DNA of 26,430 nt from a virus, in the IMG/VR virus record IMGVR_UViG_3300043436_000722, positions 1 through 26,430 of that record, one strand, 5' to 3'. Shown one piece after another: positions 3,277 through 22,283 of this stretch (positions are counted from its first letter, which is position 1; each line of letters opens with the position of its first letter). The notes under the pieces are model-generated. The model saw nothing but the letters and a program-made list of their open reading frames with translations, did no database searches and was not told the DNA's origin. The translations under genes were made by a program, and so were the position numbers.

Positions 3277-3909
3277 TTATATCCTGCATTTTCCATCTTC
3301 ACAAAGAATGGATGTAATTATTTCATTTGTTCTATGATACTTAGTATTTATATTTGGTGATTTTGAAACCGATTCATGAATAGATTTTGGGTTCATAAAA
3401 GCTCCCTGTGTTGATGGGTTTGACACAAAATCCCAACATACCAATTCAAAATCTTCTTGTACTTCGACAGCTCCTTCGCGATATAATTCTTTAACGCTTC
3501 CTAGTCCGCGCGACGAGATTCCTAATGTAATGCCAGCTTTAAATAGTTCTTTAAGAATTTTACCAGATGGTGTATCAAGTACTAGTACATCACCTTTTAA
3601 ATCATCACCTTCCCACCAAATTTTTAACACATTGTGTGATACATTGTTAAGATTAACAACTGCTGAATCTGGGTGATCTAATTCGCCTAGTGCTCTATTT
3701 TGCTGTATAAATTCTTTATTATATTTTTGGCATTCTCGCTGTAAAATGTGTTTTGGATATATTCGACCGTTTTGATTTTTTGCTCCTGCTCGTTGTAATA
3801 CCCCTTGCACAACGTATCCACCAGGCACTCCATACTTGGATCCATTTGACTCAGTTAAATTCGTTAATGGTTTAAACGGTATATAATCCTGTATAAGTTG
3901 TGGTGTCAT
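3277..3909 (-). CDS. gp21: Prohead core protease, T4 gp21 family
   Basis: This 210-aa serine protease digests the scaffold and trims head proteins before DNA packaging. Family landmarks are visible: N-G-R-I-Y-P near residue 48, A-L-G-E-L-D-H-P with the candidate catalytic His79, V-L-D-T-P-S-G-K near 110-117, and G-I-S-S-R-G-L-G-S with the candidate catalytic Ser at 132/133. N-L-T-E-S at residues 17-21 fits the L-x-E rule and could be a self-cleavage site, as T4 gp21 also processes itself. The C-terminal tail (C-E-D-G-K-C-R-I) is probably dispensable. A strong AGGAG SD (3916-3920) lies six bases before the ATG, within the end of the preceding gene. The two genes are one base apart. Confidence 0.93.
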   Translation of the reverse strand: MTPQLIQDYIPFKPLTNLTESNGSKYGVPGGYVVQGVLQRAGAKNQNGRIYPKHILQRECQKYNKEFIQQNRALGELDHPDSAVVNLNNVSHNVLKIWWEGDDLKGDVLVLDTPSGKILKELFKAGITLGISSRGLGSVKELYREGAVEVQEDFELVCWDFVSNPSTQGAFMNPKSIHESVSKSPNINTKYHRTNEIITSILCEDGKCRI

Positions 3910-3910
3910 A

Positions 3911-4684
3911 CTATTCTCCTAATGATCTTACTCGTTCTGATAATTTAATTAATGTTTCTGAAATTTTATTCAGTGCCCGTTCGGTTGCAGGACCATATCC
4001 CGTTCTTGTTACCCCAGATTCTGTTTTTAATCTAGCAGTATGTTTAACAAGGTCTTCAACTTCTCGTAATTTTTTAGCAACACTTCGTATTGTTTCTTTT
4101 ACTTTGGTATCTGGTGATTTTTTTGGATCACTAGTAGCAAACGATCTATATCCTTCAATAAGTTTAGAATACCGATGATCTAATGCTTCTTGTATTTTTC
4201 GATATCCAATTGCTTCAATAGTATCATCGTCAGCTTTACCAAACGCGTTTTTTGTCATATACGCACCAGCTGCACCTGATGTAGACGCTTCGTCTAAATC
4301 ATAAATTCCCATTCGTTCTAATTCTACGCGATCAAAATCTTTTATGAGCTGATTTCTAAAATCTTTTATTGATATAATCCATTCTACAACTACGTCAACT
4401 GCGCCGGAGTTATCTTGAAAAAATTCTTCAAATCCCTGATATCCCAATGATCCGATAATAGTCTCTAGCGGAGAAGAAGAATAATAGCCTTCTTTAATTT
4501 CCGTTACATCAACTCCAGGTTCATACCATATACCATCGCCGTCGTTATCTTGCCAACGCTTAGGGGACATTTTTGAATCTATAGACCGATTTGCACTGAC
4601 TTTTTTAGTATCTCGCGATGTTTCTGTCAACCCAGCTTCGTAGTTTTCAAACTTTTTTTCTATTTCTTTTAAAAATGATTTCAT
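3911..4684 (-). CDS. Unrecognised 257-aa protein with a DxDxDG acidic loop, gp67/68 position
   Basis: No full-length family is recognised. The protein starts M-K-S-F-L-K-E-I-E and has G-L-T-E-T at residues 18-22, a possible prohead-protease site. Near residues 43-56 is R-W-Q-D-N-D-G-D-G-I-W-Y-E-P, matching the calcium-binding DxDxDG pattern of Excalibur or EF-hand-like loops, with Tyr where Excalibur has Cys. The remainder is mainly helical and charged. Its ATG shares a base with the stop codon of the gene before it (TAATG). It occupies the place of T4 head-core genes 67/68 between portal and protease, so a head-core or packaged protein is a reasonable guess. Confidence 0.75.
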   Translation of the reverse strand: MKSFLKEIEKKFENYEAGLTETSRDTKKVSANRSIDSKMSPKRWQDNDGDGIWYEPGVDVTEIKEGYYSSSPLETIIGSLGYQGFEEFFQDNSGAVDVVVEWIISIKDFRNQLIKDFDRVELERMGIYDLDEASTSGAAGAYMTKNAFGKADDDTIEAIGYRKIQEALDHRYSKLIEGYRSFATSDPKKSPDTKVKETIRSVAKKLREVEDLVKHTARLKTESGVTRTGYGPATERALNKISETLIKLSERVRSLGE

Positions 4685-16591: not shown

Positions 16592-19147
16592 TTATGTATG
16601 GACAATTTTACTAAAACTATCAATTTTATTAACTTCTAATAAATTGTCTACCATATCCCGCATAGAATCTACATGTGAGATAATAATTGAAAAATCAAAT
16701 TTTGTTCTTAAGTATTCAAACAGATTAACTACAGAAGCTAAATGATCAGCATCTAAACTTCCCCACCCCTCATCAATTGCAATAAAATTTGGCCTAGGTA
16801 ACGCTGAAACATTAATTAATCCAATTCGTATAGCTAATGAAGAAATAAATCGTTCCATGCCAGATGTTAATTCTAATGGCCAACTATTATCTTCATCATA
16901 CACGATATAACCATTAATATTTTTTCCATCTGTTTGTAAAACAATATTAAATTCTACAATCTGATTAAGAACGTTATTAATCTCAGATTCAATTTTCGGC
17001 AATGCGGTTGCTACTAATTCATATGGCACACCATTGCGTTTAACTGCTTCTAAATAATATTCATACGCCTTATATTCAGTTTCTAACTTTTTATATGTTT
17101 CTAATTGAGTCAATGCATTTAACTTTTTTGTTTTAGCAACTTCAATTCCACCATATTTGCTTTTTATGTTATTTGTTATTAACTTTAATTCAGTATCAAT
17201 ATCAACTAGTTGTTGTTTAATTTCTTGTATTTTCAAGTCAATAACAGAATTTTGTTCTATCGCTGTTTTGTTTTTAAAGAAATGTTCTTGCCGTTCTTGA
17301 TTTGTTTCTAATTCAGATTCTTTAGTTTGTAAATCACTTTCAATAATCTGTAACAACAATTCGTTTTTTTCTAACTTAACAGCATTAATTGTTTTAATTT
17401 TTGTTTCTAAATTTTGAGCTTCAGATAGTTTTATTTCATATTCATAATACGATTTAATTTTTTCCAGTAACTCTAATTTTGTTTCAGTTAGTTCCGTTAA
17501 TAATTTTTGATCATTGGTAATCGTATCCTTTGCTTTTGTTGCGCTTTGAACAAAAACGTTAGATGTACAGTATTGGCAATTTGGGTCGTATTGATGATCT
17601 GCCAAATGTTTAATCTGTGTTTCTTTTTCATTGACTATCCTTTGTGTAGTACTAATATGTTTTTCTAAATCAACTAGTTCCTGTTTTAAATTAAACAATT
17701 CAATCGATTTATCTTGTAATTGTTTAATATCATATGTTTTTAGTTTCTTTTTATCTTCTTTAATTATTTTTGTTAACGTTTCAATTTCTGTTTCTTTTAT
17801 TTCAGAATTAGATTGCAATGTTTCGATGTTCTGTATTAGTTTCGTTTCTTCGTTTTTTAGATCCGTAATTGAAGGTCCAGTATATGTGGTTGGATATTTT
17901 GATTCAATTAATTCTAAAATCTGATTTTGTAAATCATTTCTAGTATTATTTTGTATAGATTCAGAAGTTTCGCAACTAATGATATAATCTTTGTTTTCAT
18001 TAATAATTTTTTCGGCTTCTGATATAATAATCGGAAAATCAATTTTTTGATATTCTTTTAGTTTGCCGGCAGTTTCTTTTATTTCTTCTGATGCTAATCG
18101 ATATAATTGTTCAAATACCGTTATATCTAGAAACTGCGAAAGTAAATCTTTACGTTCTCGTTGCGACTTATCAATGAAATTATTACTATCGTTTTGCAAT
18201 GAAAATGCAGTTAAAATAAAATCATCGTATGATCCTAAATATTTTCTAATATTTTTATTTGTTTCACTGCGTTCTTCCCCATTTAAATTTTCTATATCCG
18301 AATAAAATTCTACATCAACTTTAACATGTCCCGATTTTTGCATAATACCAGTACGCTCAATAGTATAATTAATATTGTTAAGTTGAAATTTAAATATTCC
18401 TTTAAAGCTAGTAGATTTATTATTTAAAACTTCATGTGCTTTACTAGTTTTACTACATTTATCAAAAATAGTATATGTTATTGCATCCAATAAAGATGAT
18501 TTGCCAGAAGTATTTGGTGCAAATAATCCAGTTACGTCAGATATTTTAGTAAAATCAACAATATTATCTGGGCCATATGAAAATATGTTTTCAAATTGAA
18601 AAGATATTGGAGTCCATGTTACATGCCGTACTTGACTTAATATTGGTAATTTTGAATTTATAGTTCTATTAATATAACGAATTGCGTCTACTTCATATGA
18701 AGTTGCTTGAGGATAATTGTTTTCTACAAATTCAGTAATTAACTTATTTTGATATTCAACATCACGAACATTTCCTATCGTTATTGACCCATTATCATTA
18801 TTCGTAGAATTTTTATTAATTCGCTGTACAGATATGTCTTGTACCGAATATTTCGATCGAAGCATTGTTATGAATTTTTTCATATCAGCGGCATCGGTAT
18901 CTTCGAATTTAATTCGTATTCTAGGTTTATTTGGTACCCGACTCGGATAATTAACTAATGATGTTCCTTTTACTTCAAATGTAATATACCCATAGTCATT
19001 TTCTATTTCTACAAATTTTGCCTTACGCGTTTCAATATCCCATACAAGTATTCCATGATCTAATGATTCTCCATGATTTTGTTGAATTGTGCTTCCAACA
19101 TATCTAACTTCTGGCTTTTTTCTAAATAATTTTATTTTTTTACTCAT
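16592..19147 (-). CDS. gp46: Mre11 C-terminal region fused to Rad50/SbcC-like ATPase (gp47C-gp46)
   Basis: This 851-aa protein has a composite structure. Residues 11-110 match the capping domain of Mre11/SbcD/gp47 (V-R-Y-V-G-S-T-I-Q-Q-N-H-G-E, then G-I-L-V-W-D-I-E-T). Residues 125-170 resemble the helical Rad50-binding end of gp47. From 175 on it is a Rad50/SbcC/gp46 ATPase: F-E-N-I-F-S-Y-G, Walker A A-P-N-T-S-G-K-S (210-217), a long coiled coil with a zinc hook C-Q-Y-C (524-527), ABC signature E-L-T-S-G-M-E-R-F (759-767), Walker B F-I-A-I-D-E (788-793) and H-loop I-I-S-H-V-D. T4 gp46 is much shorter and lacks the gp47 part. The nuclease domain is the separate ORF at 19947-20642. The ATG overlaps the endonuclease stop (ATGA). 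Confidence 0.9.
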   Translation of the reverse strand: MSKKIKLFRKKPEVRYVGSTIQQNHGESLDHGILVWDIETRKAKFVEIENDYGYITFEVKGTSLVNYPSRVPNKPRIRIKFEDTDAADMKKFITMLRSKYSVQDISVQRINKNSTNNDNGSITIGNVRDVEYQNKLITEFVENNYPQATSYEVDAIRYINRTINSKLPILSQVRHVTWTPISFQFENIFSYGPDNIVDFTKISDVTGLFAPNTSGKSSLLDAITYTIFDKCSKTSKAHEVLNNKSTSFKGIFKFQLNNINYTIERTGIMQKSGHVKVDVEFYSDIENLNGEERSETNKNIRKYLGSYDDFILTAFSLQNDSNNFIDKSQRERKDLLSQFLDITVFEQLYRLASEEIKETAGKLKEYQKIDFPIIISEAEKIINENKDYIISCETSESIQNNTRNDLQNQILELIESKYPTTYTGPSITDLKNEETKLIQNIETLQSNSEIKETEIETLTKIIKEDKKKLKTYDIKQLQDKSIELFNLKQELVDLEKHISTTQRIVNEKETQIKHLADHQYDPNCQYCTSNVFVQSATKAKDTITNDQKLLTELTETKLELLEKIKSYYEYEIKLSEAQNLETKIKTINAVKLEKNELLLQIIESDLQTKESELETNQERQEHFFKNKTAIEQNSVIDLKIQEIKQQLVDIDTELKLITNNIKSKYGGIEVAKTKKLNALTQLETYKKLETEYKAYEYYLEAVKRNGVPYELVATALPKIESEINNVLNQIVEFNIVLQTDGKNINGYIVYDEDNSWPLELTSGMERFISSLAIRIGLINVSALPRPNFIAIDEGWGSLDADHLASVVNLFEYLRTKFDFSIIISHVDSMRDMVDNLLEVNKIDSFSKIVHT

Positions 19148-19890
19148 AACTTATTAAAATCAAAATCTTTTATTTCATCTTCCCAAATACGTATTAATGT
19201 CCAATCTGATGACTCTACTAACATATTTTTGTAAATATCATTTTCTCGTGTACGTTGTTGTGTTTCATTTAATTCAGTATCGTTTAAATCTTTACCATGC
19301 CAATAAACACCATCTACTTCAATTAAAATCTTTTTAGATAGTATTGCAAAATCAAAAGAACGACCTTTAAACTCATATTGTGTTTCAAATGTTATTTTAT
19401 TATTTGTTAATATTTCAAACACTTCTATTTCTGGTTTTGTTTGTTTAACATCTTGTAATATTTTATTTCGATATTCATGCGAAGTCATTCCATATCTTTC
19501 AATAAATGTTTTATCGCATTGACGCGTTCCATACTTTCCCGATAAATTATGTACGCCAATCGCTTTAATTGTTTTATTACGTTTTTTAATTGCTGCAGGT
19601 GACCATCCAATTGGGTATTCACTATTTTCTCGAGCTTTTTGTAAACCGTCTAATCGTTTTTTACGAAATTCATCATTCTGCCATGTTTCCGCAGTTCGGG
19701 TTGCTCGCATTTTGCGTTCGGAATCAGAAGCTTTTCGTCCGATATTGTGATGTGGTTCATTTTCATATTTTTCTTTTTTACGTCTTGAATCGGCTTTTGC
19801 ATAACACGATCTATTACAGAATTTTTGTTTTAAGTTGAATGTTGAATATTCTTTTTTACATTCCTCACATATTTTTGTTTGTTTTGCCAT
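19144..19890 (-). CDS. Vsr-like EDxHD homing endonuclease
   Basis: This 248-aa homing endonuclease splits the gp47 coding sequence. The N-terminal zinc finger has Cys8, Cys11, Cys25 and Cys30. NUMOD3-like DNA-binding segments (N-I-G-R-K-A-S-D-S-E-R-K near 49-60) follow. The C-terminal nuclease domain has S-F-D-F-A (Asp180), I-E-V-D-G-V-Y-W-H-G (Glu191, Asp193, His198), R-E-N-D-I-Y-K-N (Asp218) and W-T-L-I-R-I-W-E-D-E. These match the Vsr-like EDxHD class of phage homing endonucleases (I-Bth0305I type). An 11-bp inverted repeat ends eight bases before its ATG, and its stop overlaps the start of the following gene. It appears intact. Confidence 0.88.
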   Translation of the reverse strand: MAKQTKICEECKKEYSTFNLKQKFCNRSCYAKADSRRKKEKYENEPHHNIGRKASDSERKMRATRTAETWQNDEFRKKRLDGLQKARENSEYPIGWSPAAIKKRNKTIKAIGVHNLSGKYGTRQCDKTFIERYGMTSHEYRNKILQDVKQTKPEIEVFEILTNNKITFETQYEFKGRSFDFAILSKKILIEVDGVYWHGKDLNDTELNETQQRTRENDIYKNMLVESSDWTLIRIWEDEIKDFDFNKL

Positions 19891-19898
19891 ATTAATTA

Positions 19899-19940
19899 TG
19901 TTGTATTAGTCTCTTTCTAATAAATATGTCTAATACAACA
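19899..19940. repeat. Perfect 11-bp inverted repeat before the homing endonuclease
   Basis: Plus-strand arms tgttgtattag (19899-19909) and ctaatacaaca (19930-19940) are exact reverse complements separated by 20 bases. On the transcript the hairpin would lie between the gp47 nuclease stop and the endonuclease ATG, with a purine-rich stretch (AGAAAGAGA) in its loop. It could terminate or attenuate the read-through, control endonuclease translation, or be a relic of the insertion. Confidence 0.75.
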
Positions 19941-19946
19941 AAAACA

Positions 19947-20642
19947 TTATTTTATTTGCCAACCATTTTTTAAATATTCATCAACATCACTTTCATCAAC
20001 TTCAATCTCTTCATATTTATATTTTTGTAATATCTGGTTCGGTTTATGTATATCACCTAATAACGTTATATCATGTCCATTAAATAGTTCAGTTGTTACA
20101 TGCTCATTTGAAATTTCATATCCAATATCTGTTTTTGCAGAATGAACCGCGCCATGATGTAAAGCAATTTTTCTGTATGCTGCATTAAAATCAGCTGCTT
20201 TAATATAGTTAGCCGGAGCAACATCGACTGCCATATGATTCCATGTTATTCCAGCAAATTCAAATAATCCATTCTGTTTAACGAAAAATATATTCGGATT
20301 ATTTATCATATCCAATATTGGCGACAATGCGTCTTCACGATATGAATTATTTAGATTCATGTCATGATTTCCTAGAATAACAATTGTAGGAATATCAAAT
20401 CTGTTAAAAAACTCTGTTAACATGCGAATCAATTCCGGAGACATTTCTAATTTACTGTGCACAATATCCCCGGTTACAACTGCGATACTATTAATAGTAC
20501 TGTGTGTACTAATATAATTAAACATGGTTTCAAACACCGATCGGTATTCTTGATGCCGTTTTAATGTTCTTATATGCACATCAGATATATGAAATATCTT
20601 GTCGGCTTTTTCTATTCCGCAATCAATATATTTTACTTCCAT
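19947..20642 (-). CDS. gp47: Mre11-like nuclease domain (N-terminal part of gp47)
   Basis: This 231-aa protein carries the metallophosphoesterase nuclease core of Mre11/SbcD/gp47, which acts with Rad50/gp46 in end resection and recombination-dependent replication. Visible motifs are I-S-D-V-H-I (Asp21, His23), V-T-G-D-I-V-H-S (Asp59), I-L-G-N-H-D (Asn92, His93), A-L-H-H-G-A-V (162-163) and L-L-G-D-I-H-K (197-199), so the metal site appears complete. Homology stops at about residue 206. The last 25 residues (ending V-D-E-Y-L-K-N-G-W-Q-I-K) replace the capping domain, which is encoded after the homing endonuclease. The start overlaps the primase stop by ten bases. T4 gp47 is about 340 aa. Confidence 0.9.
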   Translation of the reverse strand: MEVKYIDCGIEKADKIFHISDVHIRTLKRHQEYRSVFETMFNYISTHSTINSIAVVTGDIVHSKLEMSPELIRMLTEFFNRFDIPTIVILGNHDMNLNNSYREDALSPILDMINNPNIFFVKQNGLFEFAGITWNHMAVDVAPANYIKAADFNAAYRKIALHHGAVHSAKTDIGYEISNEHVTTELFNGHDITLLGDIHKPNQILQKYKYEEIEVDESDVDEYLKNGWQIK

Positions 20643-21577
20643 AATAAATCCATTCGGTGTTTCATTAATTTTTCAAATGTCATTGTGTATGTTTCTTCGA
20701 TTAATTTTGTAATTTGTTCGAATCCTAGTTCCGAAGCATCTTTTTCTTGTAATTCAACTAAATACACATTCAATCCCTCAGCCATGAACTTTTCACAGAT
20801 AGATAATGATTTTTTTATTGCGTCGTTATCCAAACATATGTATATGTCTTTTACATGTTCTTCGATTATTTTCTTTTGCAGCATTGGTTGTATTATTTTA
20901 CCAAATAATGGAATTGCGTTTCTCTTAATAGCCATAGCATCAAATGACCCTTCACACAATACTATTGGCTCATTCCAATTAATCATCATTTCAAATCCAA
21001 TTATATCTTTTGATACTTTTGGATTTTTATGCTTAAATGTATCGTTTGAATAATACGCTCTAGATACAAAATAATTCAATTGCCCGGTTGCATCATAGCT
21101 AGGTATAATTATTTTACCAGAATATGTTCCAGATTCACAATATCCGATTCTATAACGAATTATATCAAAAACTGTTATACCTCGTTTTTTTAAATAAAAT
21201 ATTGCATTACGATACTCTGGAGTATTCTTTGTTATCCATAACGGTTTATATTCAGCTGGCAATTGCAGTATTTCTTGTGTTTGGGTAGTCGATTGGATAT
21301 CACGATATTTATCTGTGTCTATAATTTTAGATAATCGATCGAATAATTCTTTTGGTAAATTTAACTGTTTAAACAATGAATATACACTTTTACCTTTTTT
21401 ATCAGATACCCAACAATGCCAAGTATAATTTCCTTCTGAATCTGGAGTTGATCTTATTTCTAATTTTGGTTTATAATGAGATACAAACGGAGAAAAGAAT
21501 GCTATATTACCTCCAGACGTAGGTTTACCTTTTCCTAGAACAGATTCTAATAATTGTATCAACCTAAGGTTATTCAT
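20633..21577 (-). CDS. gp61: DnaG/gp61-type primase with a degenerate zinc ribbon
   Basis: This 314-aa protein makes RNA primers for lagging-strand synthesis. The TOPRIM part is clear: I-V-L-C-E-G-S-F-D (Glu209), then I-Y-I-C-L-D-N-D-A (Asp250, Asp252) and K-D-A-S-E-L-G. A core primase segment with L-K-K-R-G-I and Y-R-I-G-Y precedes it (about 130-147). The N-terminal zinc-ribbon region keeps the framework (P-F-x-x-H-x-K-P-K-L-E-I and W-H-C-W-V) but has S-P-F-V-S-H and C-W-V-S where Cys pairs are expected, so only one of four Cys remains. It leads the recombination block, with a candidate promoter immediately upstream, and overlaps the next gene. Confidence 0.88.
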   Translation of the reverse strand: MNNLRLIQLLESVLGKGKPTSGGNIAFFSPFVSHYKPKLEIRSTPDSEGNYTWHCWVSDKKGKSVYSLFKQLNLPKELFDRLSKIIDTDKYRDIQSTTQTQEILQLPAEYKPLWITKNTPEYRNAIFYLKKRGITVFDIIRYRIGYCESGTYSGKIIIPSYDATGQLNYFVSRAYYSNDTFKHKNPKVSKDIIGFEMMINWNEPIVLCEGSFDAMAIKRNAIPLFGKIIQPMLQKKIIEEHVKDIYICLDNDAIKKSLSICEKFMAEGLNVYLVELQEKDASELGFEQITKLIEETYTMTFEKLMKHRMDLLWK

Positions 21578-21800: not shown

Positions 21801-22283
21801 TTATCCAAAGAAATTTTTAGTATCTTTAAAAGTTTCACCATTTTTTAAACATTCTGACAGCCAAGATTCTGGCATATTTTTCTTGGCAACATGCTGTATA
21901 CCTAGTTTTAATGCATATGATTCATAAGTAGTTTTACTAGTTTTTGATATTTTTTGGTTGGGATTCTGAAAAATAATTCTTAAATCTATATTAGGATTCG
22001 ATTGTAATACATGTTTCATTTTGAGTCGATCGATATTAGTCCATCGGCCTTTTGTTTCAATATACATTATTTCTCCGTTCTTTTTTGTGAATATAAAATC
22101 CGGAGTATATTTAGATTGTTTTTCAGGTACCGTGTATGTTAACGTGTTAGTTTCATAGTTAACTGGATAATCAGATTCTTTAATTTGATCAGCTACTATT
22201 AATTCTAACCCAGATCGATATCCGTATTTATACGCAACTTCACGTTGTTTACTGCCAGCAGTGTGCCAATGATTTTTTTTCAT
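21801..22283 (-). CDS. T7 endonuclease I-type Holliday junction resolvase
   Basis: This 160-aa protein resolves branched DNA, a step needed before packaging. The catalytic set of T7 gp3 endonuclease I is intact: R-S-G-L-E (Glu27), Y-T-P-D-F (Asp62) and Y-I-E-T-K-G-R-W (Glu76, Lys78). Similarity continues through D-L-R-I-I-F-Q and G-I-Q-H-V-A with P-E-S-W-L near the end, as in T7 gp3. Length is close to the T7 enzyme. T4 itself uses the unrelated endonuclease VII (gp49). No SD; the ATG follows AAAATAAGTT. It is 15 bp from the upstream gene and followed by the 223-bp spacer. Confidence 0.88.
   Translation of the reverse strand: MKKNHWHTAGSKQREVAYKYGYRSGLELIVADQIKESDYPVNYETNTLTYTVPEKQSKYTPDFIFTKKNGEIMYIETKGRWTNIDRLKMKHVLQSNPNIDLRIIFQNPNQKISKTSKTTYESYALKLGIQHVAKKNMPESWLSECLKNGETFKDTKNFFG

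Follow-up and report, generated by a model that had tools for sequence, protein, structure and literature searches.

In Aeromonas phage Aeh1, nrdA is found as two genes, nrdA-a and nrdA-b, with the endonuclease gene mobE between them, and NrdA works in two pieces (PMC2988022; PMC3653736). The T4 gene 60/mobA/39 topoisomerase and Aeromonas phage 25 gene 43A/43B are further endonuclease-associated split genes whose products assemble, and hairpins before the endonuclease repress its translation in Aeh1 and T4 (PMC2988022). Reading the Aeh1 record, we found that NrdA-a ends in a basic extension (..MGKKEKMLFKVKKSEVDKFK..) and NrdA-b starts with an acidic extension (MIEHERIYEVYEDEEYTTVEIEVD). A strong hairpin stands before mobE, and mobE overlaps nrdA-b by 14 nucleotides (nt). 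Fusion proteins of Mre11 and Rad50 are known from the Mimivirus R555 family and from aquatic viruses (PMC3175470). Here we describe a split mre11 gene at positions 16592-20642 of a 26,430-nt stretch (the window) of the viral record IMGVR_UViG_3300043436_000722 (IMG/VR). A homing-endonuclease cassette has very probably split a Mre11-Rad50 fusion gene at this locus, with the two halves reassembling non-covalently by means of cassette-encoded tags: an acidic C-terminal tail on the first half and a basic N-terminal head on the second.

The genes follow one another on the minus strand in the order primase-like gene, Mre11 N-terminal open reading frame (N-ORF, 231 amino acids (aa)), endonuclease (248 aa) and C-terminal ORF (C-ORF, 851 aa); all features below are on this strand. 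The N-ORF (20642-19947) encodes a calcineurin-type phosphoesterase of the SbcD/Mre11 family. Its nuclease N-part (residues 1-207 of 231; 20022..20642) matches Metallophos (E = 1.3e-11) and the SbcD-like phrog_100, holds every metal-binding motif, ends shortly past GDIHKPNQILQ and is 81 to 86% identical to the equivalent part of the closest relatives. Homology stops after LLGDIHKPNQILQ. Past GDIHKPNQILQK the first half runs into the 24-aa acidic tail YKYEEIEVDESDVDEYLKNGWQIK, encoded by the cassette, and then a stop codon (tail and stop, 19947..20021). An 11-bp RNA hairpin is predicted at 19899..19940, immediately upstream of the endonuclease start codon. The endonuclease (19144..19890) is an EDxHD (Vsr-like) homing endonuclease with an N-terminal Zn-binding region and matches to MTES_1575, Vsr, DUF559 and homing endonuclease PHROGs. 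The ATG of the C-ORF (19147-16592) overlaps its stop codon in the sequence ATGA. The C-ORF begins with the basic head MSKKIKLFRKKPE (about 12 aa; 19109..19147) and its homology restarts at about residue 12 (PEVRYVGSTIQQNHGE). Mre11 takes up approximately the first 180 residues. This C-part (18608..19108) carries, by similarity to uninterrupted fusions, the last phosphoesterase strands, the cap and the Rad50-binding region, and is 67 to 72% identical to the Mre11 C-part of the closest uninterrupted fusions. It is fused to a complete Rad50, an SbcC-like ATPase (16592..18607; AAA_23, E = 5e-8; phrog_77, E = 1.5e-39) with Walker A, zinc hook CQYC, signature and Walker B. Outside the endonuclease, the insert comprises approximately 165 nt: the tail, its stop codon, the untranslated gap and the head.

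An initial annotation of this DNA had given the ORF coordinates with an intact endonuclease ORF between the halves, and the ORF list and domain matches agree with it. The comparison with relatives bears out its statement that the nuclease ORF keeps the metal-binding motifs and loses homology at the place given above, and its figure of about 160 non-endonuclease bases is close to our count. It described the C-ORF as the cap and Rad50-binding parts of Mre11. This holds for the Mre11 C-part and is incomplete, as the whole Rad50 is also present. Besides the Rad50 in the C-terminal half, it overlooked the conserved acidic tail and basic head and the apparent mobility and the recurrence of the cassette.

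An IMG/VR scan with the window N-part returned 420 relatives. Among the best 80 of the 420, which were examined, nearly all read through the site as a single Mre11-Rad50 fusion ORF. Locus L008 reads continuously (..LLGDIHKPAQFLNTEKTIAYAGSLIQQNHGE..) and L012 is also one ORF at the site, so that the uninterrupted relative sought since the initial annotation is at hand. The C-ORF holds the Mre11 C-part and the whole Rad50 because the unbroken gene is such a fusion. The N-part of L099, used as a query, retrieved another group, a divergent one, in which Mre11 is a separate protein of 259 aa and the site reads CGDIHKRQIFDIPGGKKAYMIGST. In both relative sets together, 147 of the 166 scanned loci are intact at the site and one more ends at a contig edge; the 166 loci were picked by similarity and 147/166 is not a frequency.

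An AlphaFold2 model of the intact L008 Mre11 region (predicted local distance difference test, pLDDT, 81) places the site in the loop 205-210, between strands 203-204 and 211-213. Foldseek identified the model as a Mre11 fold, and in a profile alignment to Thermotoga maritima Mre11 the site falls in the same turn, ahead of YPGS. We read the two predicted strands as a beta-hairpin with the break in its turn, just past H199, the metal-motif histidine of GDIH (the last metal-binding motif). With the break in this turn, the last core strands would lie on the second polypeptide and neither half would be a complete phosphoesterase. The initial annotation had put the break between the nuclease core and the cap; both the L008 model and the T. 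maritima alignment place it inside the phosphoesterase core. In the model of the window N-terminal half, a short helix is predicted in the tail (217-225).

The same site is split, with an equivalent acidic tail and basic head, in L006, L009, L013, L097 (a 169-kb record), L098, L099 and L101-L103. This gives at least eight split lineages in all, the window and seven further. In L098, L099 and L101, Mre11 is not fused and the C-fragment is a stand-alone ORF of 74 to 75 aa. The tail is present in all eight split lineages, and tail and head are both missing from all uninterrupted relatives. Counted from its third residue up to the E that precedes YL, the tail core has a net charge of -6 to -8 (-7 for the whole L006 tail), and the head carries +4 to +6 in all eight. 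The start of the C-fragment overlaps the endonuclease stop at every endonuclease-bearing split locus. Run against 2.9 million viral contigs, a degenerate DNA pattern of the tail motif matched 14, each of which carries one of these split mre11 loci, and no copy of the motif was found elsewhere in the retrieved loci. Searched as a protein motif in sequenced phages, the tail gave no convincing match (best E 0.5); the window endonuclease had no match in the same phages. A bacterial genome scan gave one match to the tail motif, a small unrelated Aquimarina ORF with an EYLKKGW-like stretch and without Mre11. It lies on an uncultured Aquimarina contig (L220:4692-4832), the tail-like stretch is DINEYLKKGWKIKG and no Mre11 is nearby. 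Our impression is that this ORF could be a small DUF4177-type protein, and the tail may perhaps follow the pattern of the first strand and helix in that fold.

The inserts differ in their nucleases. EDxHD/Vsr-like inserts are found in the window, L006, L013, L098 and L099. The endonucleases of the window group, taken as a profile, match structure 3r3p of I-Bth0305I (E = 1.8e-4), and by homology to the I-Bth0305I catalytic domain the window enzyme is an EDxHD homing endonuclease. Motifs and weak matches assign the other two types: the L097 insert has a zinc-binding and middle region in common with the others and an HNH-like end, and the insert ORF of L101-L103 has a PD-(D/E)xK-like end with weak TnsA/REase matches. 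L098 (6020-6041), L099 (6031-6049) and L101 (4972-4990) hardly differ in the endonuclease end ..WEKLN and in the head start ATGGGAAAAATTAAATTA that overlaps it. These near-identical 3' ends, despite the different nuclease type of L101, suggest exchange of the nuclease inside the cassette with the 3' end retained. In L009 only about 69 endonuclease codons are left. Its mre11 halves are open over 230 and 851 codons and still separate, and the split therefore persists without the endonuclease. L097 has a second endonuclease ORF (3555-4394), NUMOD3-bearing and DUF559-like, immediately upstream of its split mre11, between the primase gene and the Mre11 N-part. In L102 (2779-3678) and L103 (3485-4384) a coiled-coil-like ORF with VEKxVEVPVE-type repeats follows immediately after the 74-aa Mre11 C-fragment.

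A hairpin precedes the endonuclease ATG in the endonuclease-bearing cases and is lost in L009. Its sequence varies. The z-scores are -2.2 (window), -5.7 (L013), -5.6 (L097), -1.4 (L098, weak), -3.2 (L099) and -4.9 (L101). A recognisable Shine-Dalgarno sequence is present in only 3 of the 23 window genes, which leaves sequestration of the ribosome-binding site, as in T4 and Aeh1, unsupported here; the hairpin, if it acts, may therefore occlude the start codon. Initiation independent of Shine-Dalgarno sequences is possible in this phage or its host.

In a Mre11-core tree built from sequences cut at GDIH, split genes are interspersed with intact ones. The eight split rows require eight changes of state, at least five of them forced by well-supported branches. 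The window host gene is 85% identical in nt sequence to that of intact L008, with synonymous divergence (dS) of 0.66/0.89 (0.66 being the N side), and 78% identical to that of split L006 (dS 2.4/1.39). The identity between the window and L006 climbs from about 78% to about 90-98% at the tail and is 90-100% across tail and hairpin, and dS is 0.49 in the endonuclease and 0.35 in the tail. Since dS is lower in the cassette than in the host genes, the tail, hairpin, endonuclease and probably the head appear to have moved together, later than the divergence of the hosts. These sequence signs point to lateral movement of the cassette between phages, and co-transfer with its flanks would fit homing. 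The ratio of nonsynonymous (dN) to synonymous divergence is 0.05 to 0.13 for the N-terminal half and 0.11 to 0.23 for the C-terminal half. Three observations speak more strongly for use after the split: the tail is conserved as a protein across phages whose Mre11 cores are only 35 to 48% identical to that of the window, most tail pairs have dN < dS, and in L009 both halves are intact.

The neighbouring primase-like gene (21577-20633) is the first of the four consecutive minus-strand genes. A T7-type endonuclease I (Phage_endo_I, E = 1.8e-29) is found at 21801-22283 of the window, adjoining the primase and Mre11 genes.

Many phage homing endonucleases reside in group I introns, and an unrecognised self-splicing intron would excise the insert from the mRNA. 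A scan of 18600-21000 (Rfam, E ≤ 5), the check proposed in the initial annotation, found no group I or group II intron, nor did a scan of five related loci (Rfam, gathering threshold), and the intron was rejected for the window and these five loci. The sequence outside the endonuclease amounts to approximately 165 nt only, the reading frames of tail and head are conserved across lineages, and in L009 the insert is mostly deleted but the split remains. We regard a hidden intron as very improbable. EDxHD endonucleases were first reported in split-intein fractured genes (Dassa et al., 2009, as cited in PMC10448857), and the two polypeptides might be joined by a split intein or by ribosome bypass. 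However, the window ORFs matched no intein family, and the 24-aa tail and 12-aa (approximately) head are far below the size of a splicing domain and have no splice-site residues (no boundary Cys or His-Asn); the split intein was rejected on this basis. In a bypass the ribosome must skip approximately 880 nt holding a conserved ORF. Joining by either route is hardly credible. No second mre11 (or complete gp47) was found in the window record or in the split-phage records of 169, 98.8 and 55 kb, records that are possibly incomplete. Together with the uninterrupted relative, the conserved motifs and L009, the empty intron, intein and second-copy searches favour the earlier reading of two polypeptides made without RNA or protein splicing, and we infer their complementation.

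The remaining explanations accept two separate ORFs. The insertion could have inactivated Mre11-Rad50, leaving the ORFs as recent relics in phages that can do without the complex or receive it in trans from the host. Some acquisitions do look recent (cassette dS < host dS), and the purifying selection may precede the split. But the metal-binding and ATPase motifs are all intact in the window halves, and L009 has kept both halves open after its endonuclease was lost. The tail exists in the split state only, is conserved as a protein across diverged Mre11 cores and has dN < dS in most pairs. Decay of this kind is quite improbable in our judgement. Alternatively, mre11 became a stable pair of genes in a single event, and various endonucleases settled in the gap later, neither causing nor carrying the split. 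Three nuclease types in one gap and the mere remnant in L009 would be expected from such a history, and the split gene 43 of phage 44RR has no endonuclease (PMC2988022). However, split copies are nested among intact relatives on the tree, and the tail, hairpin, endonuclease and head appear to co-move between the window and L006 lineages; the split therefore probably came with the endonuclease at least there. A single origin is unlikely, though it deserves attention.

For the preferred reading, a cassette-split Mre11-Rad50 working in two pieces, the following course is proposed. Within a phage Mre11-Rad50 fusion gene, the cassette would insert at the beta-hairpin turn of the nuclease core, and the gene would become two cistrons flanking the endonuclease, with neither RNA nor protein splicing. 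The upstream cistron would yield the Mre11 core with the acidic tail, and the downstream cistron the basic head with the rest of Mre11 and Rad50. Both halves would be translated. Tail and head may each continue one strand of the broken hairpin and pair through their opposite charges, and a working Mre11-Rad50 complex would then assemble non-covalently. The hairpin in the RNA may control endonuclease translation. The endonuclease would cut uninterrupted mre11 at the conserved GDIH codons and so spread the cassette.

Several points weigh against this reading. The case is built on sequences and predicted structures, and the predictions are of single chains only, so that the pairing of tail and head stands outside them. 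All split records are contigs of uncultured viruses, and a second mre11 could lie elsewhere in the genome of the window phage. A-rich codons overlapping the endonuclease end partly account for the basic charge of the head. Given that cassette dS is lower than host dS, the pairwise dN/dS may largely reflect selection before the insertion, and near-identical copies within each split differ little or not at all, too little for a within-lineage measure of selection after the split. We suggest more tentatively, as a possibility somewhat short of even, that the insert represents a dedicated class of mobile element that spares its host gene without splicing. Its core would be the complementary assembly tags and the start/stop/hairpin module, and the nuclease (EDxHD, HNH or PD-(D/E)xK) would be interchangeable. 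If true, such elements would parallel introns and inteins at the protein level, with tags possibly portable to other proteins.

Aeh1 NrdA is the one well-studied case of an endonuclease-split essential gene with a working enzyme. Recurrence of insertion-derived assembly tails in another enzyme makes the generality of this strategy directly testable. In addition, studies of mechanism gain a naturally split Mre11, and work on split-protein assembly gains a candidate pair of tags. In the literature searched, no report links Mre11 with split genes and homing endonucleases. The uninterrupted relatives of the window gene are Mre11-Rad50 fusions on viral contigs, like the Mimivirus R555 family and aquatic virus proteins, whereas the window fusion is broken within Mre11. 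The initial annotation had classed the locus with the fractured genes of the EDxHD class. The endonuclease is indeed EDxHD, but the fitter precedent is nrdA/mobE of Aeh1 and not the split-intein fractured genes. The latter (Dassa et al., 2009) share with the window an EDxHD-type endonuclease between gene halves in environmental phages; the window differs in having no split intein halves and tags whose length would not allow splicing. T4 gene 60/mobA/39 and Aeromonas phage 25 gene 43A/43B are similar as endonuclease-linked split phage replication genes. To our knowledge, no conserved cassette-borne tags have been described for these two systems. The window locus appears to have the traits of an Aeh1-type gene in pieces: a one-ORF homologue, an endonuclease outside any intron or intein and insertion-derived tails on both halves. 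In both phages a free-standing homing endonuclease splits a DNA-metabolism gene (essential in Aeh1) into two ORFs, the tail and head are oppositely charged, a hairpin precedes the endonuclease ATG and the endonuclease stop overlaps the start of the second half. The Aeh1 target is a ribonucleotide reductase and its endonuclease is of the HNH type, whereas the window has Mre11-Rad50 and an EDxHD enzyme. The charge polarity of tail and head is reversed and the tags have no evident sequence relation. Unlike in Aeh1, at least eight lineages share the window cassette, with nucleases exchanged among them. The kind of arrangement, an endonuclease-split gene functional in pieces, is thus known already; new are the target, the recurrence of one cassette across distant phages, the swapping of nucleases and a split that outlasts its endonuclease.

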